IMG/VR virus record: IMGVR_UViG_3300028563_000039
Coordinates: 1-40,005 of that record
Reading direction: 5' to 3' (one strand)
DNA: 40,005 bases
Source of the DNA: a virus
Each line of letters begins with the position of its first letter. The stretch's first letter is position 1. Made by a program: the position numbers and the translations under genes. The notes under the pieces are model-generated. The model ran no database searches and was not told where the DNA came from. It was given only the letters and a program-made list of their open reading frames with translations. Positions 3 to 39,867 of this stretch are shown piece after piece.

Positions 3-320
3 GGTGCAAAGTTCATTGGTAATAAAGAAGTCGTAAAAGTTATTCTTGATGATGGGTCAGAAATAGTTTGTACACCTGAACATCGTTTTATGCTTCGTGA
101 TGGTTCATATGCTGAGGCGGGAGATTTGTGTGGAAAAGAGCTAATGCCATTCAGTTTAGGGACTTGTCACTTTTCTCGTAACAATATTTTTTGTGTAAGA
201 ATTGAAGAATTGAGCATTGTAATTCCCGTTTATGATATTGAGGTTGCAAAGTATAACAATTTTGCGATTGCACACGATAGTCCAGGATTAGGAATACACG
301 GTGTAATTTTTGTTCACAAT
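3..320 (+). other. Intein 1 (C-terminal 106 residues visible), mini-intein
   Basis: The Hint block B motif TPEHRFMLRDGSY is at about 75-113, and block F (VYDIEVAKYNNFAI) is followed by the terminal VFVHN at 306-320. The next extein residue is Cys (321-323), as needed for splicing. Blocks B and F are only about 50 residues apart, so no homing-endonuclease domain lies between them. The N-terminal Cys/Ser and block A are outside the window. Confidence 0.85.
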
Positions 321-4660: not shown

Positions 4661-5261
4661 ACTATTATGTGAATACTATTCGCTCGACACAATTGATCCT
4701 AAAGAGGTGAAAAAGACATTTGACAATGAAGGTAAGATAATTTTACGTGGCGTAATGCAACGCGCGGATTCACTCAATCAAAATGGTCGTGTGTATCCAA
4801 TGTCAATACTTCAACGTGAGGTAAGAAATTACCAGAAGTTCATCATAGAGAATAGGGCAACGGGGGAGCTCGATCATCCGCCAGAGAGCGTGATTAGTTT
4901 GAAGAACGTGTCACACATTGTACGTGAACTGTACATGGATGGTAAAGATTGTTTGGGTGCAATTGAAATATTGCATAGAGTACCGTCAGGTTTAATATTG
5001 AAGGGTCTTGCAGAAAGCAAAGTAAAGATTGGAATATCGTCAAGAGGCGTCGGTGACGTGAGAGAAGAAGGAGATTACACTGTTGTTCTTGATAACTTCC
5101 AATTAATTTGTTTCGATTGTGTTTCAGATCCTAGCACAGTTCAAGCGTTCATGCTTCCAGAGTGTAGAGATGTCAGCAAAAGTGAGTTGCAAAAGCTACG
5201 AACACACTTTACAAAAGAAGATAGAATAGATAGAATTTTAAACAACATTTTGTGTAAATGA
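4653..5261 (+). CDS. Prohead core protease (T4 gp21-like serine protease)
   Basis: The protein has the family hallmarks: an N-terminal RADSLNQNGRVYP segment, catalytic His in GELDHPPE (H75), SLKNVSHIV (83-90) and catalytic Ser in GISSRGVG (S129/S130). At 202 residues it is close to T4 gp21 (about 212). Known function of the family: assembled inside the prohead, it cleaves scaffold, capsid protein and internal proteins after (L/I)xE to trigger maturation. Start ATG is preceded by AAGGAG (4636-4641) and overlaps the upstream gene. Candidate substrates in this window include the capsid protein and the proteins with I-x-E N-termini. Confidence 0.92.
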   Translation: MPKLLCEYYSLDTIDPKEVKKTFDNEGKIILRGVMQRADSLNQNGRVYPMSILQREVRNYQKFIIENRATGELDHPPESVISLKNVSHIVRELYMDGKDCLGAIEILHRVPSGLILKGLAESKVKIGISSRGVGDVREEGDYTVVLDNFQLICFDCVSDPSTVQAFMLPECRDVSKSELQKLRTHFTKEDRIDRILNNILCK

Positions 5262-8003: not shown

Positions 8004-8036
8004 ATGAACTTTTTTGTGTTTGTTCACATTTGACGA

Positions 8037-8044: not shown

Positions 8045-8056
8045 GTGTTGGTACAT

Positions 8057-9817
8057 ATGTTAAATTTGTATGAAGAAGCACTTGCAGACGTTCGAAAGAT
8101 AAAAGAAGTTGCAGAAGAGAGCGCAAAACGAGCAATCGTTGAAGCTGTTATTCCAAGAATTCGTGAATTAATTGAGAGCGAGTTGTTGGGAGACGTTGAA
8201 GACGAAGCAAAAGGCGCTCCGGGATCACCTGATCTTCAAGGTGAACTTCTCACTGATGAAGATGAAATCATACCGACTAATACAGGAATTCCCGTAGATG
8301 ACATTCTTGCTTGTTCTCCCGAAAGTGCGCCAATTGTAGCATCTCAATCAGCAACGCCATCAACCGATGCAATCACTCTTCCGGACGAAGAAGGAAAAGT
8401 GACGTTAGATATTGATGCGTTGGTCGTTGAACCTTCAGCCGGAGAAGATTTTGTATTTGGTGATGAAATTGCACCCACGCTTAAAAAGGTTGCAGACGTC
8501 GCAGAGCCCGTTGAAATTGCATTGACTGTTGAAACATTAACAAAATCTGCAAAAAATGTTGTTCGTGCAGGCAAAATCAAGACAGTGCGTGAGTCAAAAA
8601 CGTATAAAGATCAATTTATCAAATTAATTTCACAAGTCAGAAATACCTATAACGTAGTACAGGAATCAAAGCTCGATAAAAACAAAAAAAAGGAGTTGGT
8701 CGAGCAGTTGAGAAAATGTTCAAGTTCGCTCCAGGAGACAATGAAAATCATGAAAAAAATAAATGAAGCTGACGTAACAATGAAGCTGACCGGCCTTCCA
8801 GATGACATGGACTTGGACGCGGTCGGTGTTGACTTGGTTGCCGATGAAGCTGAAGAAGAAACAGCTCCTGAGGGTGACGAAGCAGGTGAAGAAGACCTAG
8901 GTGACCTAGATCTTGGTGAAGACGAGGCCGCAAAAGACGTGCAAGAAGGTCGGTTGACTGACGACACCGTCGTTGAGATTGACGAAGGCATGCTACGTCG
9001 TGAAATTGCTCGAATGCGTTCTCTCAAAGAAGAAACTGAGCCACAGTCGTGGGGTCACGGCGCTGGTGACGTTGATCAGTGGACAGACGAAGGCGAGCCT
9101 CTTGAAATCGTTCTTGACGAAGCTGATGAAGACGAAGAAGACGACAAAGATCTTGATGAAGCTGATGAAATTGATGAGCTTCAGAATCGTCGTAAGGAAG
9201 ATGAAGAGGGTCCTGCGGTTGCTGACGGTCATCACTCAGAAGTAAATCCTTATGTTGAATCTTATCGACGTGAAAAGTTGATTCAGAAACGCATTAATGC
9301 AAAAATTGCTGAGACTCGCACAGCGGCTCGTGTAGCTCGAAAAGCAAATAACGCAAAGAAATTTAATGAAGCAAAGAAACTCTTTGTTAATTTGAACGCT
9401 CGTCTTGAAGAGAGCGTCAAAAAAGGTGAGAAACTTTCTCGAAAAATTACCGAGAACAAGAAGCAACAGAATGTTGCGTCACGGCCCACGAAGAAAGCCG
9501 ACGACCTTCGTAGTAAGTTGGCAGAATCTAATCTGCTCAACGTTAAACTGCTCTGCACTAATAAGATCTTGCAGACTTCGTTGACTGATGCGCAGAAGCG
9601 CGCCGTACAACGTCGATTTGATGAAGCAAAGTCAGTCGACGAGGTGAAAGCGTTATACAAGCGAGTCATCAAACAAGTTTCAAAGACCGACATTAATGAG
9701 GGCAAGGTGATTGGATCAGGTTCACAGTCAACGAAGACTTCAGGAATGACTGTCATCAGTGAAAATGTTGAAACTGATCGTTGGGCACAGCTCGCCGGCA
9801 TCAAGGCTGGAGAGTAA
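8057..9817 (+). CDS. Prohead scaffold / core protein (gp22-like by position)
   Basis: Start ATG at 8057 is used; an in-frame TTG at 8030 would place the promoter-like box inside the gene. The 586-residue protein is very acidic (Glu/Asp runs around residues 255-395) with helical coiled-coil ends. The C-terminal part has a LAESNLLNVKLLCTNKILQ segment followed by LT..QK...FDEAKSVDEVKALY, a pattern I associate with core/scaffold proteins of T4-like phages. It is immediately upstream of the capsid gene, as gp22 is in T4 (269 aa there, so this is over twice as long). IKE at residues 14-16 and other (L/I)xE sites fit degradation by the gp21-like protease. Confidence 0.75.
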   Translation: MLNLYEEALADVRKIKEVAEESAKRAIVEAVIPRIRELIESELLGDVEDEAKGAPGSPDLQGELLTDEDEIIPTNTGIPVDDILACSPESAPIVASQSATPSTDAITLPDEEGKVTLDIDALVVEPSAGEDFVFGDEIAPTLKKVADVAEPVEIALTVETLTKSAKNVVRAGKIKTVRESKTYKDQFIKLISQVRNTYNVVQESKLDKNKKKELVEQLRKCSSSLQETMKIMKKINEADVTMKLTGLPDDMDLDAVGVDLVADEAEEETAPEGDEAGEEDLGDLDLGEDEAAKDVQEGRLTDDTVVEIDEGMLRREIARMRSLKEETEPQSWGHGAGDVDQWTDEGEPLEIVLDEADEDEEDDKDLDEADEIDELQNRRKEDEEGPAVADGHHSEVNPYVESYRREKLIQKRINAKIAETRTAARVARKANNAKKFNEAKKLFVNLNARLEESVKKGEKLSRKITENKKQQNVASRPTKKADDLRSKLAESNLLNVKLLCTNKILQTSLTDAQKRAVQRRFDEAKSVDEVKALYKRVIKQVSKTDINEGKVIGSGSQSTKTSGMTVISENVETDRWAQLAGIKAGE

Positions 9818-9855
9818 AGTTAGTATTCTCAAATAAGGAAATAAAGGAAAACATC

Positions 9856-11787
9856 ATGAAATCATTTAGTTTAAATCAGTTGGCTGAAGGCATCCGAGAG
9901 CGGCACGTTGGTGCTGAGCGGAAGCGTTTGGTTGAGAAATGGTCACGTACTGGCCTACTTCGTGGGCTTGACGGTTATAAACGAGAAGCGATGGCGCAGT
10001 TGCTTGAGAACCAAGCCGCACACGCACTTCGTGAGAGCAATTCACTGTCGTCCGGTGGAGGCAACGTAGCTTCTTCTGGCCAGATGAGCGGCTTCACGAA
10101 CATTGCATTCCCGATCGTTCGACGAGTGTTCGGTGGGTTGGTTGCTAATGAGCTAGTCTCAATTCAGCCAATGTCACTACCGTCAGGTCTGATTTTCTAC
10201 CTTGACTACACCTATGGTAGCAACGTCGGTGGAAACGCTGGTGAGTCTCTGTCAAACACCGCAACTTTCGACACCTACGACCGCGGTGCTTCACTGTACA
10301 CCGCTCCTCCTGGCAAAGGGATTCAAAGTGGATCACTTGCTGCTGGTGGCATGTACGACCTAGCGAACGTTGGTTACAGCAAGGTTCACACCGGTTCTTT
10401 GTCGGTCACTGCTTCTTGGGCAGGAACTCAGACACAAATCGGCGAGTGGGGCAACGGCGTCAACAACAACTTCGTCGCTGGTGCAACGTTCACTTCTTTG
10501 ACTGGAACGAACGGCGTTCTCACCAGCTTCGATCCTCAGCTCGAAGCTGATCTGTCTGCCGGCACCGTGTCACAGTGTTGCTTTGCGTACCTTGACGTCT
10601 CGGCGATCAAGACCGCAATTCCGCAGGGTGACTTCCTTTCCGTCAACCAGATCGCAGTCTTTGCGTTCCCGACCTCTGGCAACGTGACAGCGTGGGGTCA
10701 GTCATATCAGAGCGGCACTGGCGTTCTCAACCTACGACGCTTGAACAAGCGTGGCAACTGGACTTCGACCGCGTTCACTCCGGACGCGCTCAATGGAACT
10801 CAGGTGCAGCTTGTCATACGTCTGTCAGGTGCAACCGCTCCGAACATGGCCGCAGTTGGTCATGACAATGCTTCAGGCGTTGCGCTTTCCATGGCAGTTG
10901 CCGACGGTCTAAGCGTTCAGTCTTCAGACGGCCTGCAGACAGGGGCGACCTTGACTGTTCCTTCGTTTGAGTCTGACTTTGGTTCAACTCCTGCTCCTGC
11001 GATTCCTGAGATCGACATCAAGATCGAGTCAATCTCAATCACTGCAACCACTCGGAAGCTTCGTGCTCGTTGGTCTCCTGAAATGGCACAGGACCTCAAC
11101 GCGTACCACTCGATGGACGCCGAGGTTGAGCTAACAAGCATTCTGTCTGAGCAAATTGCTCTTGAGATCGACCGTGAAATCTTGAGCGACCTCCTGACTC
11201 AGGCAAACGGTGCAAACATGTACTGGTCACGTGCACCCGGCATGTTCGTCAACAAGCTGACTGGGCAACCCGTCAACATGACGAACTCACTGCAAATCGG
11301 GCCGCAGTTCACCGGCACAATCCGAGAGTGGTACGAAGGACTGATCGAGACGATCATCGACGTCGCGAACACCATTCACCGCAAGACCCTTCGTGGAAGT
11401 GCAAACTTCTGCGTCGTGTCACCCGACGTTGCAACAATCCTCGAGAGCTCAGTGCTGTACAAGCCGAAGTTCTCGATCGACAGTGCAGGTCAGGTTGGTT
11501 CACCGTTCACGATTGGTGCAGAAGCTATCGGAACACTGTCAAATCGGTTCACCATCTACAAGGACCCGTACTTCGCAAGAAACCGGATTCTTGTTGGTTA
11601 CAAGGGTGGAACATATTTGGAATGTGGGTATGTGTACAGCCCGTATGTTCCTGTGATAGTTACTCCCACCATCTTCGATCCGGAAGCCTTTACTCCTCGC
11701 AAAGGTGTAATGACTCGGTATGGGAAGCGCATGGTCCGGTCGGACTTTTACGGGACAGTCACGGTAATGAACATGAACATAATTTAA
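9856..11787 (+). CDS. Major capsid protein (T4 gp23-like)
   Basis: ATG at 9856 follows AAAGGAAA (9843-9850). The 643-residue product matches gp23 in signature blocks: FPIVRRVFGGLVANELVSIQ near the N-terminus (T4 MVRRAIPNLIAFDICGVQPM), TRKLRARWSPEMAQDLNAYH then MDAEVELTSILSEQIALEID, and near the end RILVGYKGG...YSPYVPV and GVMTRYGKR. It forms the hexameric head lattice. LRE at residues 58-60 (then SNSLSS) is a good gp21-type cleavage site, close to T4's E65; LLE at 49-51 is an alternative. Longer than T4 gp23 (521), mainly through an insertion at about 200-370. It is visibly more GC-rich than its neighbours, consistent with high expression. Confidence 0.95.
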   Translation: MKSFSLNQLAEGIRERHVGAERKRLVEKWSRTGLLRGLDGYKREAMAQLLENQAAHALRESNSLSSGGGNVASSGQMSGFTNIAFPIVRRVFGGLVANELVSIQPMSLPSGLIFYLDYTYGSNVGGNAGESLSNTATFDTYDRGASLYTAPPGKGIQSGSLAAGGMYDLANVGYSKVHTGSLSVTASWAGTQTQIGEWGNGVNNNFVAGATFTSLTGTNGVLTSFDPQLEADLSAGTVSQCCFAYLDVSAIKTAIPQGDFLSVNQIAVFAFPTSGNVTAWGQSYQSGTGVLNLRRLNKRGNWTSTAFTPDALNGTQVQLVIRLSGATAPNMAAVGHDNASGVALSMAVADGLSVQSSDGLQTGATLTVPSFESDFGSTPAPAIPEIDIKIESISITATTRKLRARWSPEMAQDLNAYHSMDAEVELTSILSEQIALEIDREILSDLLTQANGANMYWSRAPGMFVNKLTGQPVNMTNSLQIGPQFTGTIREWYEGLIETIIDVANTIHRKTLRGSANFCVVSPDVATILESSVLYKPKFSIDSAGQVGSPFTIGAEAIGTLSNRFTIYKDPYFARNRILVGYKGGTYLECGYVYSPYVPVIVTPTIFDPEAFTPRKGVMTRYGKRMVRSDFYGTVTVMNMNII

Positions 11788-15413: not shown

Positions 15414-15458
15414 GGTGTTACACCATCTTTGACGAGATATCGTTTATGGACGGTAATA

Positions 15459-16928
15459 ATGACATCAAAGACATCACGCTCACTCATGGCTCGTGTATCA
15501 AACGAGCTTTACAACAAAGTTTTGCTCCTGGCATCGAAAGCAGGTGAGACGATAAGCGAGTTCGTTGCAAACGAGCTACAGAAGAACGTTCATGCACCTG
15601 TTGCTGACAAAAATTTGTTGGCTCAGCAACGTGAATTTGAGCTATGTAGGAGAGATCCAGCGTGGTTCATTGAGAACTATTGCAAAATAAAGTTACCTGT
15701 GAACAATGTCATAACTGCGTTTCAACCTTATCAATATCAAAAAGATTTAATCAAATCATTTGAAAATAAAATTTCTGTTATTTTAAGGTCACGTCAAATT
15801 GGCATGTCAACGTTGCTTGTCGCATATGCATTGTGGACAGCGTTGTTTAATAAAAAAACAATTTTAATCGTTACGTGTAATTTGAATACAACAAGAAATT
15901 TTAGCAATATACTAAAAGTAATGTTTGAAAATTTACCAAATTGGATGACGTCATCAAGTGATAAAGTAACGAATCACGGCGCATCATTCAATAATGGATC
16001 GATAATTGACATCGTTTCATATACGATTTATGCGGCCCGTGGACGTGTAGCAGATTTATTAATACTTGATGAAATGGCATGGATGAAAGACGCGTTCGAT
16101 GCATATGCACAGTGCGTAACAAAAGGAAAAATAATAATTTCAAGTACGTATAACGATGACGTTTCGAAACGTTTTGATGAAGAAAATCCGCTCGATCTTA
16201 GAATGCGACGTAAGATAGGTGAAAAGAAAATGGGAGACGATTTTAGAACGCTATTGTCAACGCATTCAAATGTGATCGTTTTGCCATATACGGTGTGTCC
16301 TAAAATGACGAATGACGTCATTGAAAACATTAAAAAGACAATGTCAACAAAACTGTTTCTACAACAGTTTTTGTGTGATTATTCAAGTGATGCTCAAAAA
16401 CGTCTTGACGCATTTAATAAAATGCGAGACGATATGATTTACGAAGGTACAAAACCACTTTATGACGACACGTTTGAATACGTTCCTGAAATTATAACAG
16501 TAAAAACAGACTGTGAATTACCGACGTATGTAAATTTTGTTTTGCCGAGTGATGATGGTAAAACTACAGAATATGCTCATAATCGTTATGTAAAAATAGA
16601 TGCTTTATCTGAAAAACTTCAACATGTAGTTCGTACGTACATTAATTCTCAAAGAGATACAATTAATTTGTGTAATCCCAATTCGCGATTAATTTTCGCT
16701 GTTAAGGAAAATTTTGAACATATAATTTCACTTTATCTTGATAAAGGAAGAGAAAAAAAGTATGTCATGACAGTGATAATTGATGGTGGAAAGTCGGAAC
16801 ATTATTACGATATTGAACGTTGGAGTGATTGTGAACAAATAATTGAAACTATAGTTTCAAGAGAAAAATTTACAATAACATCATGTGAAAATTCGTGGAT
16901 TGAACAAAAAGATGATGTCACTTCATAA
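15459..16928 (+). CDS. RHH-fused terminase-like ATPase without nuclease domain
   Basis: ATG at 15459 is preferred to a TTG at 15429. Residues 8-42 look like a ribbon-helix-helix DNA-binding unit (ARVSNELYNKVLLLASKAGE). Then follows a large-terminase ATPase: FQPYQYQKDLI (Q-type motif, about 88-98), deviant Walker A SRQIGMST (111-118, the usual Lys is Met), Walker B LLILDEMAW (200-208) and coupling motif ISSTYND (237-243). After about residue 360 no RNase H-like nuclease motif of gp17 is seen; the C-terminal 130 residues are an unrecognised domain. At 489 residues it is about 120 shorter than T4 gp17. It may be a diverged terminase paralogue rather than the packaging motor. Missense or assembly error is unlikely, because the frame and codon use are even. 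Confidence 0.7.
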   Translation: MTSKTSRSLMARVSNELYNKVLLLASKAGETISEFVANELQKNVHAPVADKNLLAQQREFELCRRDPAWFIENYCKIKLPVNNVITAFQPYQYQKDLIKSFENKISVILRSRQIGMSTLLVAYALWTALFNKKTILIVTCNLNTTRNFSNILKVMFENLPNWMTSSSDKVTNHGASFNNGSIIDIVSYTIYAARGRVADLLILDEMAWMKDAFDAYAQCVTKGKIIISSTYNDDVSKRFDEENPLDLRMRRKIGEKKMGDDFRTLLSTHSNVIVLPYTVCPKMTNDVIENIKKTMSTKLFLQQFLCDYSSDAQKRLDAFNKMRDDMIYEGTKPLYDDTFEYVPEIITVKTDCELPTYVNFVLPSDDGKTTEYAHNRYVKIDALSEKLQHVVRTYINSQRDTINLCNPNSRLIFAVKENFEHIISLYLDKGREKKYVMTVIIDGGKSEHYYDIERWSDCEQIIETIVSREKFTITSCENSWIEQKDDVTS

Positions 16929-21803: not shown

Positions 21804-22442
21804 ATGTCAGACAGCGTTTCATTGCTCAAAGCCGCAGCAAAAAATAATGACGTTGTGTTGAAATTCATTGACAATGTCATTACATATGTTAAAAAACATG
21901 ACATTGTGTTGCGAGTCACTGAAGAAAAGAACGTAGACGGGCAGTATGCGGGCTATTTTTGTTCTGATCCAAAAGAACTGGCAATTGCAATTGGCAAGCC
22001 TCTCGAACAGTGGGTGCCTGTGTTATTGCACGAGTTGAATCATGGTGTTCAGTACGAAGAAAATCCGAGCCTGTTTGATCAGCTTGGTGAAGGTGAGGAT
22101 GATTTTTACACGTGGACGAGCGGTGAGATGCCGAAGCACTTTGACAAACAAACGTCGTTGATGAAGAGTCTAATGATTGAGAGCGACTGTGAACAACGCA
22201 CCGTAAATTCAATCATCAAGTATAATTTGCAGTTGATCATAAATCCCGTAGAGTATGCGCAGAAGGCAAATACTTACGTGACTTTTTATAAGTACGTAGC
22301 TCGAAAGCGCCGTTGGAATGTGCAAGGAAAAACGCCATACGAAGTGAAGAACGTGTGGAAACTGTTTCCAACAAAAGTCGAATTGTTTGGATGTCCATTG
22401 AGAAAAAGGTATAGAGAAGCATTTGAAAAGTGCATGAAGTGA
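21804..22442 (+). CDS. Putative zinc metallopeptidase (HELNH motif, 212 aa)
   Basis: Contains VLLHELNHGVQYEE with the HExxH motif at residues 76-80; E126 or E130 (MIESDCEQR) could be the third zinc ligand, as in gluzincins. A further SDPKELAIAIGKPLEQW segment precedes it. No signal peptide, so it would act in the cytoplasm or inside the virion. The family and substrate are not identified; HExxH alone can occur by chance, but the hydrophobic context is right. Confidence 0.55.
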   Translation: MSDSVSLLKAAAKNNDVVLKFIDNVITYVKKHDIVLRVTEEKNVDGQYAGYFCSDPKELAIAIGKPLEQWVPVLLHELNHGVQYEENPSLFDQLGEGEDDFYTWTSGEMPKHFDKQTSLMKSLMIESDCEQRTVNSIIKYNLQLIINPVEYAQKANTYVTFYKYVARKRRWNVQGKTPYEVKNVWKLFPTKVELFGCPLRKRYREAFEKCMK

Positions 22443-22448
22443 GGGTGT

Positions 22449-22622
22449 ATGAACACAGTGACGACTTTGTCAAAAATTGACGTAGAAAATATCGTTCGTG
22501 AATTTGTTCGAAAATCAGTCAAAGGCGTGACAATGATTGATGTGAAGATTCCAGAAGATTTAGAGATTAAAGTCGAGTACAATGCATTTGTGCAAAGCAT
22601 AAACAAAGAAGAAAAATCATGA
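22449..22622 (+). CDS. Small hypothetical protein (57 aa)
   Basis: ATG at 22449 after GAGGG. Reads MNTVTTLSKIDVENIVREFV and later EDLEIKVEYNAFVQSI. Its stop overlaps the alanine dehydrogenase start (ATGA), so the two are translationally coupled. No family recognised. Confidence 0.5.
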   Translation: MNTVTTLSKIDVENIVREFVRKSVKGVTMIDVKIPEDLEIKVEYNAFVQSINKEEKS

Positions 22623-23671
22623 TTACGACAATTGGCGTGCCACGTGAAATTAAGAACAATGAACGTCGAGTTGGGATGACACCTTCTGGCGTGTCGTTGA
22701 TCAAGTCAACGTATCAAAATCTCGTCAAGATTTTTGTTGAGACAAAAGCAGGCATCGGTTCGGGATATTCAGACAATGACTACGCGACAGCGGGAGCAGA
22801 AATCGTAGACAACGCATACGACAAAGCGCGTTTGATTGTCAAAGTAAAAGAACCACAAGCAAGTGAAATTGGTCTGATCAACGACAAACACGTGTTGTTT
22901 TGTTACCTACACTTAGCTGCGTCTAAGACTTTGACACAAGTTTTGCTCGACACAAAGTGCGTTGCGTTGGCGTACGAGACGTTAGTTATCAACGACAAGA
23001 CACCCTTGCTCTCTCCAATGTCAGACGTAGCAGGCAGAGTCGCAGTCCAACGTGGATCGATGTTTTTGCCGAAGTTACTATCAGGAGTCGTAGGCGTCCC
23101 AAGCGCACATGTGATGGTGATCGGTGCGGGCGTCGTTGGGACTTCAGCGGCAGAAACAGCGAAAGGCATGGGAGCACGCGTAACAGTTGTTGACACAAGC
23201 GTCGATGCGCTTAGACAAGTTGCGCCAATGTGTGTTGGAACTGTGCTTTGTGATAGCATCACTGGAAAATTGTTGGAAGACGTTGACATGCTAATTGGAG
23301 CTGTGCACTCGCCTGGCAAAAAGGCTCAACGCGTCGTGTCAAGTAGAGCAATGTCATATATGAAGCGAGGTTCAGTCGCAGTCGACGTGAGCATTGATCA
23401 GGGTGGTTGTTTTGAGGGAAGTCACGCTACGTCACATGATGAGCCAACGTACGATCTCAATGGCATAACTTATTACTGCGTACCAAACTTGCCTGCCGTC
23501 GTGCCACACACCTCAACGAGGGCTTTGTGCAACGCAACGCTTCCGTACGTGAAGAAGCTTGTTACGAGCGAATTTGATGCGTTCCACTATGACATGTTTT
23601 CTGGAGCGCTAAATCTACGTGATGGTGAGATTTGGAACAAGGCTGTGAAAGATGTATACGATGGAACATGA
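22619..23671 (+). CDS. ald: Alanine dehydrogenase (NAD-dependent)
   Basis: Catalyses reversible oxidative deamination of L-alanine to pyruvate and ammonia with NAD. The full-length pattern is present: IGVPREIKNNERRVGMTPSG at the start, KVKEP (75-79), YLHLA (96-100), Rossmann loop GAGVVG (169-174) with D192 after the next strand, and IDQGG (259-263). Residues matching the known catalytic or substrate set are R17, K75, H98 and D260, so the enzyme should be active. It has 350 residues against about 370 for the bacterial enzyme, the shortfall being mostly at the C-terminus. It lies in the accessory block, translationally coupled at both ends, and is an unusual phage metabolic gene. NAD(P) transhydrogenase alpha subunit is related, but HLAA and the ligand residues favour alanine dehydrogenase. 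Confidence 0.9.
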   Translation: MITTIGVPREIKNNERRVGMTPSGVSLIKSTYQNLVKIFVETKAGIGSGYSDNDYATAGAEIVDNAYDKARLIVKVKEPQASEIGLINDKHVLFCYLHLAASKTLTQVLLDTKCVALAYETLVINDKTPLLSPMSDVAGRVAVQRGSMFLPKLLSGVVGVPSAHVMVIGAGVVGTSAAETAKGMGARVTVVDTSVDALRQVAPMCVGTVLCDSITGKLLEDVDMLIGAVHSPGKKAQRVVSSRAMSYMKRGSVAVDVSIDQGGCFEGSHATSHDEPTYDLNGITYYCVPNLPAVVPHTSTRALCNATLPYVKKLVTSEFDAFHYDMFSGALNLRDGEIWNKAVKDVYDGT

Positions 23672-23906
23672 GTACGTCGAATATCCGTTACTGCCTAAGT
23701 CAATCGTTAAATACGTAATTTTACGACAACAAATGTTTGTTGCATACGATCGAAATAAAGACGACGGAACGTCTTACGAGGCGTGGTACTTGACTAACAA
23801 TCACAATGATAACTTTGTGTTGTCATATAAATCTGCGATTGATGCACAAAGACACACAATATCAGGAGACACAATTCGAATAATCATTGACGATGTGTTG
23901 GTGTGA
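23661..23906 (+). CDS. Small hypothetical protein (81 aa)
   Basis: Starts inside the end of the dehydrogenase gene; ATG at 23661 or 23652. Aromatic-rich (MFVAYDRNKDDGTSYEAWYL). No family recognised. Confidence 0.5.
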   Translation: MEHEYVEYPLLPKSIVKYVILRQQMFVAYDRNKDDGTSYEAWYLTNNHNDNFVLSYKSAIDAQRHTISGDTIRIIIDDVLV

Positions 23907-23909
23907 ACA

Positions 23910-23917
23910 ATACTTAT
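23910..23917 (+). promoter_or_regulatory. ATACTTAT box (candidate late promoter)
   Basis: Lies 4 bp before the start at 23922, too close for a Shine-Dalgarno. Confidence 0.45.
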
Positions 23918-23921
23918 TATT

Positions 23922-24761
23922 ATGAACTTATTACGTCAATATATTAAAGAATCAATAATGTTTCTTGAAAAAGATCCGGACGTACTTGAATATAAAAATA
24001 GTGATACATGGTATGATAAAGGAAAATACATCGGATCTGACGATGCATGGCATTCAAAAGCAATTGTTCATGTGTTTGTTGAACCAGATGGACAAAGAAT
24101 AGCACGTGCAAAAATTAATGGACACTGGAAAGCATGGCATTATGATGGTATATTAGGAAAAGCAAAAAAAGAAAAACCACTTCCAATATTAGACAAGAAA
24201 TATAAAAATTATAATTGGTATCATCTTTCACAAAATGATCTTGGAGCGTCATTCACATTTATTCCAAGAATACCAAAACATCCAATGAATGCTAATGGCG
24301 GGATGATAGAAGATGATTTTTCCGTACGAACAAGTTGGGCACCCGACATAAAAAGTGCGTTAGATGCTTTATACGGTGCGATTGGTGAAGATAAAGTATT
24401 ATATGTGTATGCAACCAATAAATTACCAGGCGAAGTTGACGTAGAAAAAAACTTTGATGATGCACCGTCATCTCCCGGAAACGAATATGGCGAAGATTTT
24501 GATGTCAATAAGTTTGTTAGGTGGGGAAAAGAAGAAGGCTTGTCACAAGAGCTGTTAGAACCTCCAGAAGGTGCAGAAGCAATACGAGCGTTGAAAGGAC
24601 AGGTACCCGATAGTCCTAAAACACATGAACACTGGGCAACCGAACCAGTAAAAGCAATAAAAATAGGAATGCTAAAGTTTGATCGAGGCAAACCCTATGT
24701 TGAAAATCGTTCACAACACGATGTCGGGAGACATATTTTGAATGATACTTATTTGTTGTAA
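23922..24761 (+). CDS. Candidate capsid-targeted protein, paralogue A (279 aa)
   Basis: N-terminus MNLLRQYIKES contains I8-K9-E10, like T4 capsid-targeting sequences cut by gp21. From residue about 98 it shares a domain with the protein at 28099: YHLSQNDLGASFTFIPRIP, then IEDDF..R.SWA, YVYA.N.LPG.VDVE, PSSPGNEYGEDF and THEHWAT. Residues 20-90 are a Trp-rich segment missing in the paralogue. The common domain is not identified; packaged ADP-ribosyltransferase-type effectors such as T4 Alt are a loose analogy only. It ends by overlapping the first base of the gp13 remnant. Confidence 0.65.
   Translation: MNLLRQYIKESIMFLEKDPDVLEYKNSDTWYDKGKYIGSDDAWHSKAIVHVFVEPDGQRIARAKINGHWKAWHYDGILGKAKKEKPLPILDKKYKNYNWYHLSQNDLGASFTFIPRIPKHPMNANGGMIEDDFSVRTSWAPDIKSALDALYGAIGEDKVLYVYATNKLPGEVDVEKNFDDAPSSPGNEYGEDFDVNKFVRWGKEEGLSQELLEPPEGAEAIRALKGQVPDSPKTHEHWATEPVKAIKIGMLKFDRGKPYVENRSQHDVGRHILNDTYLL
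24745..24752 (+). promoter_or_regulatory. ATACTTAT box (candidate late promoter)
   Basis: Inside the end of paralogue A and 8 bp before the gp13-remnant start, the same arrangement as before the intact gp13-like gene. Confidence 0.4.
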
Positions 24762-24928
24762 TGACGACATTTGCTCAAACTGTCCATCCCACGCCGTTCG
24801 AATATTTTTCCAGCGATCCAGCATTTATTGCAGATGCTGATGGAATGGCAACTTTTGTGCTCCGTCGCTTAGGAAATGACTCGCTCAGCGTCGAGCTAAG
24901 TAAAAAAGAAATTTTCACGAATATATAA
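24761..24928 (+). pseudogene. Truncated duplicate of the gp13-like neck gene 5' end
   Basis: Encodes 55 residues (MTTFAQTVHPTPFEYF..., ...DADGMATFVLRRLGND...VELSKKEI) that match the first 51 residues of the neck protein at 25818, then ends IFTNI-stop. The match covers start codon and upstream box. Third-position differences are many, so it is not a recent copy or assembly error. It looks like the left scar of a recombination or insertion that brought in the two genes at 24945 and 25259. It could still be translated. Confidence 0.8.
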
Positions 24929-24944
24929 TCTATTAGGAGACAGT

Positions 24945-25259
24945 ATGAAAATCACAGAAGCACAGTTACGATGTATAATTCGACAAGAAATTAAAGGTTC
25001 AAAGAAAAGCATTCGAGAGGGTTCTGCGCCACCAAACTCTGTATCAAAGGTTGCAAGTTTGATAAACAGCGTCTTATTTTCAGACAGTCACATCACGGTT
25101 GACGTAAAAGAATTAGAGGCTGCGTTGAACGCTGACAAAGAAGTAGTCGGACGTTTTCCGACAGAGGGTGAAGTCGACGATATTGTGATGGGCGGCGACG
25201 ACGGCTTGAAGGCTAGCATGTTCCCGACGGTGTCAAATTTGTTAGCAAGCCAATTCTAA
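24945..25259 (+). CDS. Candidate capsid-targeted small protein (104 aa)
   Basis: Strong AGGAGA Shine-Dalgarno just before ATG. N-terminus MKITEAQLRCIIRQEIKG has the L8-R9...I12 signature, and I23-R24-E25 gives a gp21-type site. The rest is acidic and helical (VDVKELEAALNADKEVVG). No fold recognised. Lies between the gp13 remnant and the intact gene. Confidence 0.6.
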   Translation: MKITEAQLRCIIRQEIKGSKKSIREGSAPPNSVSKVASLINSVLFSDSHITVDVKELEAALNADKEVVGRFPTEGEVDDIVMGGDDGLKASMFPTVSNLLASQF

Positions 25260-25804
25260 TGTTAATAACAATTAAAACGCTTCGATCTCTCATTAGGGAA
25301 ACAATTGACAACACGTTCACGAATAAAAAACGTGAAAGAGACGAAGCGTTAGAATTGTTAAAACAAAAGCATCCTGACGTCATTGTAGACGACGTGTATT
25401 TTTCGCTGTTGTATAGCACACAGTCATTGTTAGACAACGAAAAACTAAAAAGAATGGGTGTCGACAAAAATGAATTGAAACACGTGTTAGACACTGAACC
25501 TGCAAATAAATTTTGGAACGTTGAAACAACTGAAGATGATTTACGAATTTATCGAATTTTAGAAAAACAAAAGTTACTATCAGGAGAGAAAATAGCAAAA
25601 GCAGGTGCTGTCAAAGTTGGTGACACGCTCGTACACAGAAAAAATCAAAATGTTGAATACGATCCTTGGCCCGTTGGTTTGTTTCAAGTCGAAAAGATAA
25701 AACATCGTGGCGGCGAGGTTTCAATTTATGTTGTCGATGAAAACGGTAAAAAAGATCAATTCGATCTTGAGACAAACGAGACAATAATCGTTAGAAAAAC
25801 GTGA
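25259..25804 (+). CDS. Candidate capsid-targeted protein (181 aa)
   Basis: ATG overlaps the previous stop. N-terminus MLITIKTLRSLIRET has L8-R9 and I12-R13-E14, exactly as in the protein at 28099. The middle is charged and helical. The C-terminus (VKVGDTLVHRKNQNVEYD... LFQVEKIKHRGGEVSIYVV) looks like a small SH3-like barrel. Function unknown. Confidence 0.6.
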   Translation: MLITIKTLRSLIRETIDNTFTNKKRERDEALELLKQKHPDVIVDDVYFSLLYSTQSLLDNEKLKRMGVDKNELKHVLDTEPANKFWNVETTEDDLRIYRILEKQKLLSGEKIAKAGAVKVGDTLVHRKNQNVEYDPWPVGLFQVEKIKHRGGEVSIYVVDENGKKDQFDLETNETIIVRKT

Positions 25805-25811
25805 TACTTAT
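25804..25811 (+). promoter_or_regulatory. ATACTTAT box (candidate late promoter)
   Basis: Ends 6 bp before the gp13-like start at 25818; no Shine-Dalgarno between. Confidence 0.45.
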
Positions 25812-25817
25812 ATCTAA

Positions 25818-27014
25818 ATGACAACATTCGCGCAAACTGTGCATCCCACTTGCTTCGGGTACTTCGACGCAGACCAATCCTTCATTTCAGATGCCGATGG
25901 GATGGCAACGTTTGTTCTACGTCGCCTAGGAAACGATGTTTTAAACGTCGAACTTTCGAAAAAAGAGATTTGGGCGTGTTTTGAAGAGGCAACGCTTGAG
26001 TACGGCCGCCTCGTCAATGAGATGCGCGCACAGTCTGAGCTCGTTAACGTGCTCGGAATGCCGACGGGCTCAACGGACCTAACGAACACGTACCTGCGCC
26101 CGACAATGGAATACCTGTTCAGGCTCGCAGATCCGTACGCAACCGCGGCAGGCGTGGGTGGAAACTACGATGCAACACTCGGGTACATAAATTTGAAATC
26201 AGGTGTTCAAGACTACAGCCTTTATGATGATTTGTACAATGCAGAAGTTCCCACACCAACACTGATGTACAACACGCAGGAAGCCGGAATGCGCGGCAAG
26301 ATAACAGTTCAAGAGGTGTTTCATTTTGAACCATTTGCGGCACAACAGTTCTTGTTGAACGCGTCGAACGTGACGAACTTCTTGGCGTCTAACTTCAACT
26401 ATGAGAGTTACGTAAACAGCACAATATTCTACGTGTTGCCTGTGTTTGAAGACGTGCTTCGAAGGCAAATGTTGGAGACGGCGTTTAGAGTTCGCAGGAG
26501 CAATTACTCATGGGAGATCATAGGGAGCAAAATACGACTGTATCCGATTCCTGTTAGTGATTCGCAGATGGGAAAAGTTTACATCAAGGTGTTTAATGGT
26601 CAGATGAATTCGTTGAACAGCTCAATTGGTGGAAACCAAGGTGGAGATGACACAATCTATGGGATTAACGGACCTGCTAACGCGCCGTATTCAATAGTAC
26701 AATATGCTTCAATCACAAGTCCAGGAAGACAGTGGGTGCGAGAATATACACTTGCATTATCACGTGAGACACTCGGGTTAACTCGTGCCAAGTTCACTCA
26801 ACTTCCAATTCCAGGAGACAATGTAACGTTGAATGGACCTGAGTTGATTTCACAAGGTAGAGAAGATCAAGCGAGACTAAGAGACAAATTAGTAGAGTGG
26901 TTACAAAACTTTAGTTCAGCAAAACTCCTCGAGCAACAAGCTTCGATCGCAACTTCAATGCAACTATTGTTGAAATCGATACCCTTCCCAAAGGGAAGCA
27001 TCAGAATATTTTAA
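25818..27014 (+). CDS. Neck / head-completion protein (gp13-like, 398 aa)
   Basis: N-terminal FVLRRLGNDVLNVELSKKEI followed by an EEATLEYGRLVNEM helix matches the LRRLG...VEL...QI...DEAL pattern of gp13-type proteins of T4-like phages, which cap the filled head with gp14 before tail attachment. The C-terminal half has SWEIIGSKIRLYPIP and YTLALSRETLGLTRAKF. T4 gp13 is about 309 residues, so this is longer. GC is higher in the first third. An ATACTTAT box lies 6 bp upstream and a diverged fragment of its 5' end at 24761. Confidence 0.75.
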   Translation: MTTFAQTVHPTCFGYFDADQSFISDADGMATFVLRRLGNDVLNVELSKKEIWACFEEATLEYGRLVNEMRAQSELVNVLGMPTGSTDLTNTYLRPTMEYLFRLADPYATAAGVGGNYDATLGYINLKSGVQDYSLYDDLYNAEVPTPTLMYNTQEAGMRGKITVQEVFHFEPFAAQQFLLNASNVTNFLASNFNYESYVNSTIFYVLPVFEDVLRRQMLETAFRVRRSNYSWEIIGSKIRLYPIPVSDSQMGKVYIKVFNGQMNSLNSSIGGNQGGDDTIYGINGPANAPYSIVQYASITSPGRQWVREYTLALSRETLGLTRAKFTQLPIPGDNVTLNGPELISQGREDQARLRDKLVEWLQNFSSAKLLEQQASIATSMQLLLKSIPFPKGSIRIF

Positions 27015-28698: not shown

Positions 28699-28702
28699 TT
28701 AT
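28695..28702 (+). promoter_or_regulatory. ATAGTTAT box (candidate late promoter)
   Basis: Overlaps the previous stop codon and ends 4 bp before the papain-like start at 28707. Confidence 0.4.
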
Positions 28703-28706
28703 TTGC

Positions 28707-33889: not shown

Positions 33890-36859
33890 ATGGCGTCCGA
33901 ACAAATACTCAATTCACCTGGTATTCTTGAACGAGAAATTGATCAATCACAACCTTCACCCACAGGACCAATTGGCGTACCTGCTGGTGTTATTGGCACA
34001 GCAAACAAAGGTCCAGCATTTGTGCCTGTCGTGGTTGGGAATATTGGTGAATTCACTAATACGTTTGGTGGACTTGACATACACAAACCTGGAACTTACG
34101 CGGCTAACGAATGGCTAAATAATCGGACTGCTTTGACGTATTTACGCGTTCTCGGAGCGGGTTCAGATGCAGAAAATGCATCGACTGGCGAAACACTGAA
34201 CGCAGGATTGAGCGTGCTTCCTGATGTGTCAACGCGGGTTCCAGGACGTCATACAGGTATGGTTCAATTTTTGACGCAGCAAGGAAACGTTGCGTCTCAA
34301 GAAATTGCAATGCCGATGTTTACCGACAACGATAGTTTTAGCGGTGGCACTGCAAACGTCGTTCGAGGAATAATTTTGCTAACGACTGGCTCTCGTGCAA
34401 TGGTTCAAAGCGGCAACGCGTCAAGTGTTGCAGCGTTCGTTGGCGCCGGCCCAAATGACTTGGCAACTGTCGTGAACGGACAGTTCAAATTGATAATTTC
34501 AAGTAGTAATTTGAATGTCACTACAGACGGTAATGCGGGTGTTGCAATATACAGCGCATCGTTTGATCCAAATGATCAAAATTATTTTGGGAAAATTTTG
34601 AACAAAGATCCTAAACAATTTGCAACTCGTCAACATCTTTTATACGCCGATTTTGCGGTTGACGCAGAAGTTTTGTCTTCTTCCTACGCCGCAATGCTGT
34701 CAGGTTCATCAGACGTCATTAATCCTGTTTCAAACAGAACGTACATTAATGCATTTGGATCTTTCAAATCACGTTATAAGACGGCAAAAACGTCAATGTT
34801 TATTTCGCAACCCTTTGGCACGAAAGAGTATGACTTATTCTACTTCGAAGCAATGGACGATGGTGCCTACGCGAACACATTGACAAAGATAACAATAACA
34901 AATTTGCACGCATCTCTTGATCCTGCAAACAAATACGGTACTTTCACTGTTCAAGTGCGTGCATTCGATGATACAGATACAAACATGAACGTTCTTGAAA
35001 CATATCCAGGTTGCACGTTAGATCCACAAAGCGATCATTATATTGGCAAATTAATCGGTGATCGAAAAGTGTTCTTCAATTTCGACGTAGAGGATAGTGA
35101 AAAACGCGTCGTTGCAACAGGCAAGTATGCAAATGTTTCAAAGTACATCAGAGTACAAATTGTAGAAGAGGTTGAGCGCGCTATTCTGCCACAGACAATT
35201 CTACCCTTTGGTTTCAGGGGCGTTGAATTACTGAAAACAAATGACGCAATGGGCGATAAGGTCACAAAATTTCCGCGCCTTGCAGGTGTCTTGGGCGCGC
35301 AAAACACAATAACGGGGTCTGTGTTACCGCCGATACCTTTTAGATTTAAGGTTACACGTGGTGAAGTTCCGACTACGCAAACATTCATCGGACAACCTGG
35401 TTCTACAGAAGTGACGAATCCAAATTTTTGTTGGGGCGTTAAATTTGAACGAAACGATAATCCGACGAACGCAAATCTATCATCAGAACCCAACGCGTTG
35501 ATTTCGGCGTGCACAAAGTTGTTGGGCATTGCTCAACTTGACACTGTCGTCACAGGTTCTGGTGCAGACACATTCAACAATAATAAATTTACACTCGCCA
35601 GGGTTGCATTGTCTAATGGTGCAATTACGGACCTTACGTCGTCTGTGACTGATCACATGCGTGAAGCCGCATACATACGCAATGCAACAGTTAACTCAAC
35701 GGATTATACAATAGTCGATCAGGGTGCAGCAAAGCCAAGATTGACGCTTGCGTCATTGCTACAATCGGGATCCGCGGCAACGTTCAATCAATTTTCACAC
35801 TATGCAAAATTTTCAACATTTATGCACGGTGGATTTGACGGTGTAAATTTCTTGGATCAAGACGCAGTCAGAATGAATGATAAAATTTCATCGTTTGATG
35901 CTCTGGGCGGCGCAGAACAAAGCTATGTGTCACCAGGACTTGCGTCAAACATGGGTGGAGTTGGTCAAAAAAATAGCACTGTCGCTTCGTATAGAAAAGC
36001 GATTGACATCATGACAGACAAGATGACGGTGAACGTCAACGTGCTAACTATTCCTGGAATTCGTGATTCGTTCATCACTGATTATGCTGCACAAAAAGTG
36101 AAGGAATACGGGCTCGCATTTTATATCATGGACGTACCATCGTATGACGATGCACAAAATCGCCTGTATGATACGTTGGTTAAACCGTCTGTGAATAGAA
36201 CTGCAAACGCGTTTGATACCCGTGCAATTGATAATAACTACGTCGCGACGTACTTCCCTGACGTATCAATTGACGATACAACGAATAAACGTCGCGTAAG
36301 AGTTCCTGCGTCAGTCGCAGCTCTCGGTGCAGTTGGATTCAACGACAGAGTTGCCTATCCCTGGTTTGCACCCGCTGGGTTTAACCGCGCTGCGCTTGAT
36401 GATGTAAAGTCAGTTGTAGTTCGCCTTAACACCGCAGATCGTGATCGATTGAGCAACAGTCGAATTAATCCAATTGCAACGTTTCCACGAGCAGGTTTTG
36501 TGATTTACGGTCAAAAAACCTTGCAGGTCGCAAAGACGTCATTGAATCGTGTGAACGTGCGAAGACTATTGCTTGAAGTCAAGCGCATCGTAATGTCTGT
36601 TGCAAATGGCATCGTGTTTGAACAGAATACGCAGGCAACGAGAGCGTTGTTTGTGAAGTCAACGAATGAACAACTTGGGTTAATTCAGGTTCAGTCTGGA
36701 CTTGATGATTTCAACGTTATCATGGACGATACAAACAATTCAGTTGAAGACGCCGCTGCGAATAGGCTGAATGGGCGAATAGTACTCGTTCCAAGTAGAA
36801 CAGTCGAATTCATAGGAATTGATTTCATTGTGAGTAATTCGGGAGTCGAATTTAAATAA
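33890..36859 (+). CDS. Tail sheath protein 1 (gp18-like, 989 aa)
   Basis: N-terminus ILNSPGILEREID then GVPAGVIGTANKGPAFVPV and AANEWLNNRTALTYLRVLGAG are the sheath signature. The C-terminal FPRAGFVIYGQKTLQVA and RVNVRRLLLEVKRI are the conserved sheath closing domain. T4 gp18 has 659 residues; the extra length is in the central protruding region. It forms the contractile tube around the tail core. AGGAGA (33875-33880) is a strong ribosome-binding site. Confidence 0.93.
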   Translation: MASEQILNSPGILEREIDQSQPSPTGPIGVPAGVIGTANKGPAFVPVVVGNIGEFTNTFGGLDIHKPGTYAANEWLNNRTALTYLRVLGAGSDAENASTGETLNAGLSVLPDVSTRVPGRHTGMVQFLTQQGNVASQEIAMPMFTDNDSFSGGTANVVRGIILLTTGSRAMVQSGNASSVAAFVGAGPNDLATVVNGQFKLIISSSNLNVTTDGNAGVAIYSASFDPNDQNYFGKILNKDPKQFATRQHLLYADFAVDAEVLSSSYAAMLSGSSDVINPVSNRTYINAFGSFKSRYKTAKTSMFISQPFGTKEYDLFYFEAMDDGAYANTLTKITITNLHASLDPANKYGTFTVQVRAFDDTDTNMNVLETYPGCTLDPQSDHYIGKLIGDRKVFFNFDVEDSEKRVVATGKYANVSKYIRVQIVEEVERAILPQTILPFGFRGVELLKTNDAMGDKVTKFPRLAGVLGAQNTITGSVLPPIPFRFKVTRGEVPTTQTFIGQPGSTEVTNPNFCWGVKFERNDNPTNANLSSEPNALISACTKLLGIAQLDTVVTGSGADTFNNNKFTLARVALSNGAITDLTSSVTDHMREAAYIRNATVNSTDYTIVDQGAAKPRLTLASLLQSGSAATFNQFSHYAKFSTFMHGGFDGVNFLDQDAVRMNDKISSFDALGGAEQSYVSPGLASNMGGVGQKNSTVASYRKAIDIMTDKMTVNVNVLTIPGIRDSFITDYAAQKVKEYGLAFYIMDVPSYDDAQNRLYDTLVKPSVNRTANAFDTRAIDNNYVATYFPDVSIDDTTNKRRVRVPASVAALGAVGFNDRVAYPWFAPAGFNRAALDDVKSVVVRLNTADRDRLSNSRINPIATFPRAGFVIYGQKTLQVAKTSLNRVNVRRLLLEVKRIVMSVANGIVFEQNTQATRALFVKSTNEQLGLIQVQSGLDDFNVIMDDTNNSVEDAAANRLNGRIVLVPSRTVEFIGIDFIVSNSGVEFK

Positions 36860-36969: not shown

Positions 36970-39867
36970 ATGACGATCACCTACGGTTCAGCCGGCGTAA
37001 CTGCAACAGAAATTGACATATCGGGTCCAGTTGTACAAAAACCCACAGGTATTCCTGCTGGCGTGATTGGCACGTCGCAAAAAGGTCCTGCTTTTGCTCC
37101 AATAACTGTTGGCGTGTACAGTGACTTTTCTGCCAAGTTTGGCGCAAGCGACGGAAAGAAATTCATGCCACTTGCTGCCAATGAATGGTTACGAAACCAA
37201 AGTTCATTGACTGCTGTACGAGTTTTAGGCGTTGGCGATGGCAAGACGCGCAATCCCAATGGAACGGTTACAAACGCCGGATTTACCGTCGGTGAAAACG
37301 AACCGAACACGTCATTACCGACAAGCGATCCCACATACGGCAATTTAGCGTATAATCCTTATGCAATTGCTGGTGGTCCCAACGGCCGCACGTACTTCTT
37401 AGGCGCGTTGATGTCGGCGTCGGCGGGTTCAACGTTATTTTCTTCTGCCTCGATAAATCTTCCGTCAGTTCCCGTAGTTCGTGGCGTGGTGATGGCTGCG
37501 AATGGTGTTATTTTGCGACTTGCAAATGACGAGTACAACAATGCGAATCCACCGTCAAATACAATCGTAGCTGCCGATATAACTGCACATGGCATGTCTG
37601 TTGGAACGGTGACAACGTCAAGCAACGGGACAGTAAAACAAGATTTTAGATTGCTGTTGAACGGCATTCCAGGAACCGATCCTTCGTATCCAAACGTCAT
37701 TACTGCGTCATTTGATCCAAATGCGTCAAATTACTTTGCGAACGTGTTTAACACTGATCCATATAAGCTACAACAAACAGGTCACTTTTTGTACACGAAC
37801 TATGACGTATTAACGTCACAGGCAACCGTAAATGGAACGGGCATAACCGCTGGTTCAACGTTAGCATTTTTGGTCACCGGTTCATCAATTGCTTCTGCAC
37901 CGAATTACGAAGCGTTTACTGATAGATTTTCTAATGCACGTTCACCGTGGATTGTGTCACAAAAATTTGGTGGAGTCGCACAAAATCTTTTTAGACTTTG
38001 GGCACTGGATTCTGGCGCGAACATTTCAACGTTATACAAGATTTCAGTTGAAAACATTGCTGCATCGTCTGACAACACGAATCCATTTGGAACGTTTGAT
38101 GTAACAATTCGTGATTGGAACGACACTGATGGAAACGTAAGTTATCTTGAACAGTGGCGTGGATTATCGTTAGATCCTTCGTCACCACGTTATATTTCAA
38201 ACGTCATTGGCGATCTACACACATACTTTGATTTTGATCGTTCTGACAGTGAACAAAAACTCGCAATCGATGGTGATTATGAAAATGCGTCGAACCTTAT
38301 TCGAGTTGAAGTGTCAGACGACGTTCAGAATGGGTCAATTGAACCCACCGCGTTGCCATTCGGTTTCGCTTCACCTCTGCACTTGGTAACAACGTCAGGA
38401 TCTCTCGACGGAACAATTTCTCACTTTGTGACAGGTGCAATTCAACCGCCGCTACCTCTACGACAGAATGTAACAAACGGTTCAGGAGCAAAAGCGTTAG
38501 TTAACCCACAACTTTATTGGGGCGTTCAATTTGAACATCAGGCTTCACTCGACATGCCAAATGGCACAACGTTGAAAAATGCGTCATTGAATTCTTGGAC
38601 AAAATATTTTCCTGAATTTTCAACAGTTCCAGTAGTCGTTGGTGGTGATACTTTCTGTAACAATGCGTTTACACTTGAAAACGTAAAAGTTGTCACGAGT
38701 TCAATTGGACTTGCGGACCCAAGCGCTTGGGCATCTGCGACATATGCACGTGATGGTAACATTGTCGTTGATGACAATGCGAAGACACGTCCGTTGAAGA
38801 TTGACGATCTGACGTCTGCAAATAGACGTTTTATAAAGTTCACCACGTTGATGCAAGGTGGGTTTGATGGTACGAATATCTTTGATCGCGATGAAGCGGA
38901 GATAAATAACGCTGCGGTCACTGCAGACATGGACAATGTTTCGCGTGGTAGGAACAATGGTCCAAACGTGATGGCGTATAGAAAAGCAATTCAGCTAATG
39001 CAATCGACGACAGAAGTTGACGTGCAACTATTGCTTGTCCCAGGCATTCGTCATCCCGCAGTCACTGACACGTTGATTTCTGCGGTTGAAGATCGCTTTG
39101 ACGCTCTTGCAATCGTTGACATTGAACAACTTGATGGTAATGGCGATAACGTTGTCGGAGACGATCAACAACCTGTCGTAAACGCAACAGCCGAACAGTT
39201 CGCGGGTAGGTACGCCGACAGTTCATTCGCCGCCGCGTACTTTCCTGACGTAATCATGACAGACCCAACGACAAAAACAAATGTCGTCGTGCCGCCGTCA
39301 GTTGCAGTGCTTGGTGCGTTGGCTCTCAACGATAAGTTGGCTCAACCATGGTTTGCACCGGCAGGCATGACACGAGGTTCACTCCAGACGACACTTGAGA
39401 CAAGGGTGAAGTTATCCAAAAATGATATGGACGCACTCTACGATGTCAACATCAACCCGCTCGTTGCGTTTCCAGGCAACGGCACGGGTGGAACCGCTCC
39501 AACGGGCGGAGTCGTCGTGTGGGGTCAGAAGACGCTACAGGCTTCAGCAAGTGCATTGGATCGCGTCAACGTCAGGCGGTTGCTCATCAACCTGCGTCGT
39601 CAGGTGCGAGACGTTGCGCAGACGATAATGTTTGAGCCCAACAGGGAAGCGACATTGGCAAGGTTCCAGAACGCAGTCACTCCAATATTGGCGAGGGTGC
39701 AGAAATTGTCAGGCATCGAGAAGTACAAGGTGCAGATCGACACGACAACTACTACACAGGCTGATGTGTTGAATAACACAATCCGCGGTGCGATCTTCGT
39801 GGTACCGTCTCGCGCTGTTGAGTTTGTCAAACTTGACTTCGTTGTGTCGAATCCAGGTGGCGCGTAA
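36970..39867 (+). CDS. Tail sheath protein 2 (gp18-like paralogue, 965 aa)
   Basis: Shares with sheath 1 the N-terminal GIPAGVIGTSQKGPAFAP and AANEWLRNQSSLTAVRVLGV, the middle LDPSSPRYISNVIGD, and the C-terminal VVWGQKTLQASASALDRVNV then RRLLINLRRQV. The two are diverged but alignable throughout, so they arose by an old tandem duplication. Having separate promoter box and terminator, it can be expressed independently. Both copies have complete N- and C-terminal domains, which suggests both go into the sheath or that one serves a special position. Confidence 0.92.
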   Translation: MTITYGSAGVTATEIDISGPVVQKPTGIPAGVIGTSQKGPAFAPITVGVYSDFSAKFGASDGKKFMPLAANEWLRNQSSLTAVRVLGVGDGKTRNPNGTVTNAGFTVGENEPNTSLPTSDPTYGNLAYNPYAIAGGPNGRTYFLGALMSASAGSTLFSSASINLPSVPVVRGVVMAANGVILRLANDEYNNANPPSNTIVAADITAHGMSVGTVTTSSNGTVKQDFRLLLNGIPGTDPSYPNVITASFDPNASNYFANVFNTDPYKLQQTGHFLYTNYDVLTSQATVNGTGITAGSTLAFLVTGSSIASAPNYEAFTDRFSNARSPWIVSQKFGGVAQNLFRLWALDSGANISTLYKISVENIAASSDNTNPFGTFDVTIRDWNDTDGNVSYLEQWRGLSLDPSSPRYISNVIGDLHTYFDFDRSDSEQKLAIDGDYENASNLIRVEVSDDVQNGSIEPTALPFGFASPLHLVTTSGSLDGTISHFVTGAIQPPLPLRQNVTNGSGAKALVNPQLYWGVQFEHQASLDMPNGTTLKNASLNSWTKYFPEFSTVPVVVGGDTFCNNAFTLENVKVVTSSIGLADPSAWASATYARDGNIVVDDNAKTRPLKIDDLTSANRRFIKFTTLMQGGFDGTNIFDRDEAEINNAAVTADMDNVSRGRNNGPNVMAYRKAIQLMQSTTEVDVQLLLVPGIRHPAVTDTLISAVEDRFDALAIVDIEQLDGNGDNVVGDDQQPVVNATAEQFAGRYADSSFAAAYFPDVIMTDPTTKTNVVVPPSVAVLGALALNDKLAQPWFAPAGMTRGSLQTTLETRVKLSKNDMDALYDVNINPLVAFPGNGTGGTAPTGGVVVWGQKTLQASASALDRVNVRRLLINLRRQVRDVAQTIMFEPNREATLARFQNAVTPILARVQKLSGIEKYKVQIDTTTTTQADVLNNTIRGAIFVVPSRAVEFVKLDFVVSNPGGA

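Follow-up and report, generated by a model that had tools for sequence, protein, structure and literature searches.

Alanine dehydrogenase (AlaDH) is a classical enzyme, and the question raised by the DNA analyzed here is what a complete gene for it is doing in a virus contig. Metabolic genes are a known kind of phage gene, and genes of photosynthesis, carbon and nucleotide metabolism are known in phages. The contig comprises 40,005 bases, and its whole length is referred to below as the window.

The window represents part (40 kb) of the genome of a distant T4-like myovirus (Table 1). The AlaDH gene is located within a block of virion genes, downstream of those for gp20, gp21, gp23 and the terminase, and upstream of the neck and sheath genes. 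The preliminary description of a complete gene carried by a phage thus holds, with a full frame, lacking internal stops, and phage genes on both flanks. The GC content and codon usage of the gene are inside the range of its neighbours, and within the 40-kb window no metabolic partner gene was found beside it. According to the structural proteins, the nearest phages in GenBank are Microcystis phage Mel-JY01, the Flavobacterium "immuto" phages, Rhodothermus phage RM378 and uncultured large phages, at identities of roughly 27–50%, varying by protein; no near-identical phage was found in GenBank, and the window had no nucleotide match there.

Table 1. Features of the window (all coordinates refer to the 40,005-base stretch).
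Feature	Position	Strand	Evidence and remarks
Portal protein gp20 with intein	3..3320	+	PF07230, 4.7e-67; intein PF14890, 1.3e-32
gp21-like prohead protease	4653..5261	+	PF03420, 3.2e-20; phrog_207
Major capsid protein gp23	9781..11787	+	PF07068, 6.3e-77
Terminase large subunit-like	15429..16928	+	phrog_5989, 6.8e-28; phrog_2, 3.3e-19
Upstream neighbour of AlaDH	21804..22442	+	212 aa; HELNH motif; kept in all three phages
ORF in the gap between upstream gene and AlaDH	22449..22622	+	57 aa; read from sequence
AlaDH, complete	22619..23671	+	350 aa; ATG at 22619, stop ends at 23671; Pfam, TIGR00518, 1PJB, AlphaFold2 model
AlaDh_PNT_N (substrate) domain	22634..23032	+	PF05222, 5.3e-38; residues 6-138, with R17, K77, H98, M134, S135
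Clade-specific loop deletion site	23072..23077	+	K152/L153 junction; GGxG of cellular AlaDHs missing
AlaDh_PNT_C (NAD-binding) domain	23048..23638	+	PF01262, 1.3e-57; residues 144-340, with GxGxxG 169-174, D192, D260, N290
Variable insert between AlaDH and neck gene	23652..25804	+	Absent in L002
Neck/head-tail adaptor gene	25818..27014	+	phrog_211 (Ad2), 2e-8
Tail sheath genes (two)	33890..36859, 36970..39867	+	phrog_23, 1e-43 and 4e-57

Several other products of the window were noted. The two tail sheath genes are consecutive and encode unusually long proteins (989 and 965 aa), a papain-like C1 cysteine peptidase (28620–29513; PF00112, 1.1e-10) is encoded among the neck and tail genes, and the protein encoded at 11931–12884 combines a C2H2 zinc-finger-like start with a TnsA-like/head-closure endonuclease end.

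On its domain content, the gene encodes a full-length protein of the AlaDH/PNT family with both domains. The two Pfam domains occur in order along the full length (130.8 and 195.1 bits, versus cut-offs of 30.4 and 23), the NCBIfam alaDH model TIGR00518 is matched at 9e-102 (340.7 bits), and the top solved relative is the Phormidium AlaDH 1PJB (4e-81), other solved AlaDHs being weaker. Chance as the source of these domain, family and structure matches is excluded. Moreover, an AlphaFold2 model produced from 40 homologues (mean pLDDT 92.3, pTM 0.89) resembles 1PJB with a TM score of 0.94 and the M. tuberculosis AlaDH 2VHX (with NAD+ and pyruvate) with 0.92. Among the AlaDH chains, TM scores of the predicted model ranged from 0.91 to 0.94, with an rmsd of 1.6–2.0 for most chains; for domain I of transhydrogenase (PntA) they were mostly 0.85–0.87, with an rmsd near 3. 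A PntA identity was rejected on the scores and on this lower likeness of the predicted fold, and the PntA cut-offs were missed (NF006942, 138.6 bits against 383; TIGR00561, 119.2 against 444.4). The TIGR00518 equivalog cut-off of 391.85, a naming threshold rather than a biochemical feature, was not reached by the window protein, and its two closest phage relatives gave similar scores (L002, 328.4 bits; L003, 339.9 bits). The claim is therefore limited to membership of the AlaDH/PNT family, AlaDH-like by its active site.

These two relatives, L002 and L003, derive from other metagenomes and carry AlaDH (90% and 86% amino-acid identity, respectively) at the same place, with counterparts of the window's 212-aa gene upstream and of its neck gene downstream. 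For AlaDH, dN/dS is 0.07–0.09 at dS values of 0.7–1.4, and no frame damage was seen in the window. Because the gene is syntenic and under purifying selection in L002 and L003, it belongs to the late-gene block of this phage lineage; it resides in phage genomes and has been subject to long-term purifying selection. No contigs were found that lack AlaDH at this place, the other relatives (L095 and L097–L099) not extending to the site.

Contaminating host DNA, a chimera created in assembly or a passenger gene recently acquired and decaying had to be weighed against this residence, since AlaDH homologues are widespread in bacteria and a few of the records of phage AlaDHs are probably host DNA: L100, the 3-kb Listeria "phage" records and the unverified S. 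aureus record H1 look like ordinary bacterial DNA and are not to be counted as phage genes. Such an origin is refuted for the window gene and retains practically no probability, as the gene order is common to three contigs from different metagenomes, the nearest cellular protein is only about 48–50% identical, dN/dS is below 0.1 and the frame is undamaged; synteny and dN/dS alike exclude contamination and chimerism. The preliminary description had named a contaminating host contig, and absence from related phages, as the outcomes that would speak against a phage gene. Phage genes were found on both sides of AlaDH, and L002 and L003 both keep it under purifying selection.

The upstream 212-aa gene is 94% and 83% identical (amino acids) in L002 and L003, with a dN/dS of 0.04. 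Its HELNH protein, for which no family hit was obtained and whose low-confidence model had no fold match, is possibly a metal-dependent hydrolase. In the window, the stop of the 57-aa ORF overlaps the AlaDH start as ATGA, which suggests translational coupling of the two. The ORF is absent from L002 and L003, in which the upstream gene nearly abuts AlaDH.

The interval between AlaDH and the neck gene is an insertion hotspot (window 23652–25817, L003 9002–10176, L002 7310–7349). It is empty in L002, where the neck gene is directly 3' of AlaDH. The window insert contains several ORFs and a truncated duplicate of the 5' end of the neck gene (approximately 24761–24928, with 116 of 169 columns identical); no relatives were found of the downstream neighbour of AlaDH at 23922–24761. 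The L003 insert carries a minus-strand, 354-aa endonuclease-like ORF (9062–10126), with repeats of the neck-gene start on both flanks. The sequence TACTTATT appears shortly ahead of start codons in all three phages (window 3783, 23911 and 30085; L002 7336; L003 10165 and 14283). Some copies are part of the duplicated neck-gene start and others are not, and the sequence could represent a late promoter or start signal.

The active site was compared with those of 83 other AlaDHs, nearly all of them cellular. Residues R17, H98, D260, N290, M134 and S135 are invariant in that set, and all are present in the window protein. Within VKVKEP, the lysine that is both invariant and catalytic is K77. The preliminary description had assigned this role to K75, a less conserved lysine two residues ahead, and in this respect it is corrected, while R17, H98, D260 and the Rossmann loop are kept as it had stated. 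The Rossmann motif (G169-A-G-V-V-G174) and the NAD-ribose Asp192 are retained; since Asp192 is present, the window enzyme should be NAD(H)-dependent. Window residues R17, K77, H98, M134, D260 and N290 correspond to Arg15, Lys75, His96, Met133, Asp270 and Asn300 of the M. tuberculosis enzyme, of which we take Asn300 to be a catalytic or substrate residue. The roles of the other five have been described, His96 and Asp270 (equivalent to window H98 and D260) being essential (PMC4691113).

The clade formed by the three phage enzymes departs from its relatives in several short segments, as defined in an alignment of 109 AlaDHs. Seven residues are missing between residues 152 and 153, and with them the GGxG loop ahead of the NAD domain, which is 98–99% conserved in relatives and is not known to be required. 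The loop is gone in the window, L002 and L003, and a comparable gap occurs in only one other row (L117). Two further short deletions are shared by the three proteins, one of approximately 3 residues around position 65 and one within the NAD domain, and all these deletions are nearly unique among the 109 AlaDHs. Position 237 is Q in all three and proline in 100% of the others; its segment matches the end of the NAD-contact loop (M. tuberculosis residues 238–247; PMC4691113). The trimmed segments and Q237, none of them named in the preliminary description, probably account for the failure to reach the TIGR00518 cut-off; oligomer state or substrate use may also be affected by them. An enzyme of the AlaDH family with an altered substrate range (e.g., 2-aminobutyrate, serine or glyoxylate) would be in keeping with the deletions, with Q237 at the end of the NAD-contact loop and with the score below the equivalog cut-off, and amino acids besides alanine are substrates of some AlaDHs (PMC10401832). 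However, R17, K77, H98, M134, S135, D260 and N290 are identical to those of true AlaDHs, and a changed substrate is considered unlikely.

In the phylogenetic tree, the AlaDHs of the window, L002 and L003 group together (100/100); a long stem (1.7) leads to this clade, which is nested in a supported set (100/97) of 26 rows. These are mainly Bacteroidota, the rest being Verrucomicrobiota, Planctomycetota, Campylobacterota and a few others. The position of the clade beside Sulfurospirillum is unsupported (69/14), support being confined to the wider set. Because the nearest cellular proteins are only about 48–50% identical and the stem is long, the clade is judged to be old and phage-specific. The trees separate the phage AlaDH clades from one another; since AU tests of the main clades failed to reject a common origin (p 0.15–0.60), repeated capture of AlaDH by phages is suggested rather than demonstrated.

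Retention of the active site, together with selection, argues for catalysis. We infer activity, direction, timing and benefit alike. With moderate confidence, we favour the reading that AlaDH is an auxiliary metabolic gene resident in a T4-like myovirus lineage and that its product is an L-alanine dehydrogenase, catalytically competent and NAD-dependent, which most likely deaminates alanine. Within its run of virion genes, AlaDH would probably share a transcript with the gene upstream of it and be translationally coupled to that gene; production of the enzyme would accordingly fall most likely in mid to late infection. Host L-alanine would be used in the reaction L-Ala + NAD+ + H2O -> pyruvate + NH4+ + NADH; the ammonia released would enter nucleotide and amino-acid synthesis, and the infected cell would gain carbon from pyruvate and reducing power from NADH. 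The neighbours of other phage AlaDHs (see below) fit a supply of carbon, nitrogen, nucleotides and redox equivalents. The roles suggested in the preliminary description (a source of pyruvate and ammonia, a change in alanine pools, or NAD balance) are all possible.

The same enzyme could run in reverse (pyruvate + NH4+ + NADH -> L-alanine), yielding alanine for protein or cell wall, reoxidizing NADH or answering oxygen shortage. Amination is a serious rival because the family is reversible and purified AlaDHs are usually more active in that direction (PMC10401832), and the sequence evidence is identical for both directions. We nevertheless regard it as rather improbable, on the supposition that nucleotide demand in phage infection exceeds alanine demand and that free ammonia is normally low. 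The strongly conserved position within a structural block might alternatively indicate a non-catalytic or moonlighting protein, structural or virion-associated for example; this is very unlikely, since every catalytic residue is under purifying selection, in the window and in other phage lineages, and metabolic genes inside late blocks are, as a matter of general knowledge, common in phages. 

The earlier view that phage AlaDHs are unusual is fair, but they are not unique, being found in approximately 27 viral contigs, in the cultured cyanophage S-N03 and in the uncharacterised PHROG 25893, although a few of these are probably host DNA. At least two other phage lineages carry the gene. The first is a T4-like clade of ten contigs (L105–L112, L115 and L116), several of which contain gp23 and/or terminase; we presume it to be marine, judging by the IMG source numbers and by the company these contigs keep. 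In four of these contigs (L106, L110, L111 and L116), a malate dehydrogenase gene is directly downstream of, or overlaps, AlaDH, and in L105 a PurN-like formyltransferase is directly ahead of it. The L110 pair occupies positions 7995–10071, and its malate dehydrogenase exceeds the NCBIfam cut-off (tested for L110). The second lineage is S-N03, whose AlaDH (gp053, YP_010669068.1) is annotated as a "hypothetical protein", passes TIGR00518 at 428.5 bits and groups with L103 in the tree. The equivalent of window Asp192 is glycine in all ten contigs and in S-N03 (L090), and the cofactor in both lineages may therefore be NADP(H). In addition, a divergent AlaDH occurs on L117, a 245-kb contig with gp23 and a nearby gene of the IMPDH/GMP-reductase family.

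No published description of a phage AlaDH was found among 5.4 million open papers, and the enzyme goes unmentioned in the paper on S-N03. We tentatively propose, as a possibility held with some doubt, that AlaDH is an unrecognised auxiliary gene, taken up more than once by T4-like phages as loop-trimmed, phage-specific enzymes and paired in some with malate dehydrogenase. If so, AlaDH and malate dehydrogenase would form a small module in those phages that, while virions are being assembled, draws usable carbon and ammonia from alanine and keeps NAD(P)H in balance. One lineage retains the gene at a fixed site and other T4-like lineages also have it, which suggests that control over alanine, as a nutrient or redox handle, is worthwhile during infection. 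The "hypothetical protein" of S-N03 can be named AlaDH, which provides a laboratory phage for testing the role.

The nearest known system is the bacterial Ald (EC 1.4.1.1; Phormidium lapideum 1PJB/1PJC and M. tuberculosis Rv2780, 2VHW/2VHX). The window protein shares with it both domains, the predicted fold (TM 0.92–0.94), the catalytic and substrate residues, the NAD-type Asp and GxGxxG. In contrast, the window protein is shorter (350 aa versus approximately 361–377) and approximately 40–50% identical to the bacterial enzymes, the GGxG loop and two short segments are gone, and Q237 replaces proline. Domain I of PntA has the superfamily and fold in common with the window AlaDH, at a lower TM score (approximately 0.87); unlike PntA, the window protein has no membrane part and retains the AlaDH substrate residues. 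Among phage proteins, the profile of PHROG 25893, a cluster listed with no assigned function, matches residues 5–343 (2.8e-78). The AlaDHs of the ten-contig clade are likewise phage-resident, but are only 37–41% identical to that of the window and form a separate clade. Similarly, Synechococcus phage S-N03 is a T4-like myovirus carrying an AlaDH with its catalytic residues retained, whereas its enzyme is 41% identical to that of the window, has another gene neighbourhood, keeps the GGxG loop and bears glycine in place of Asp192.
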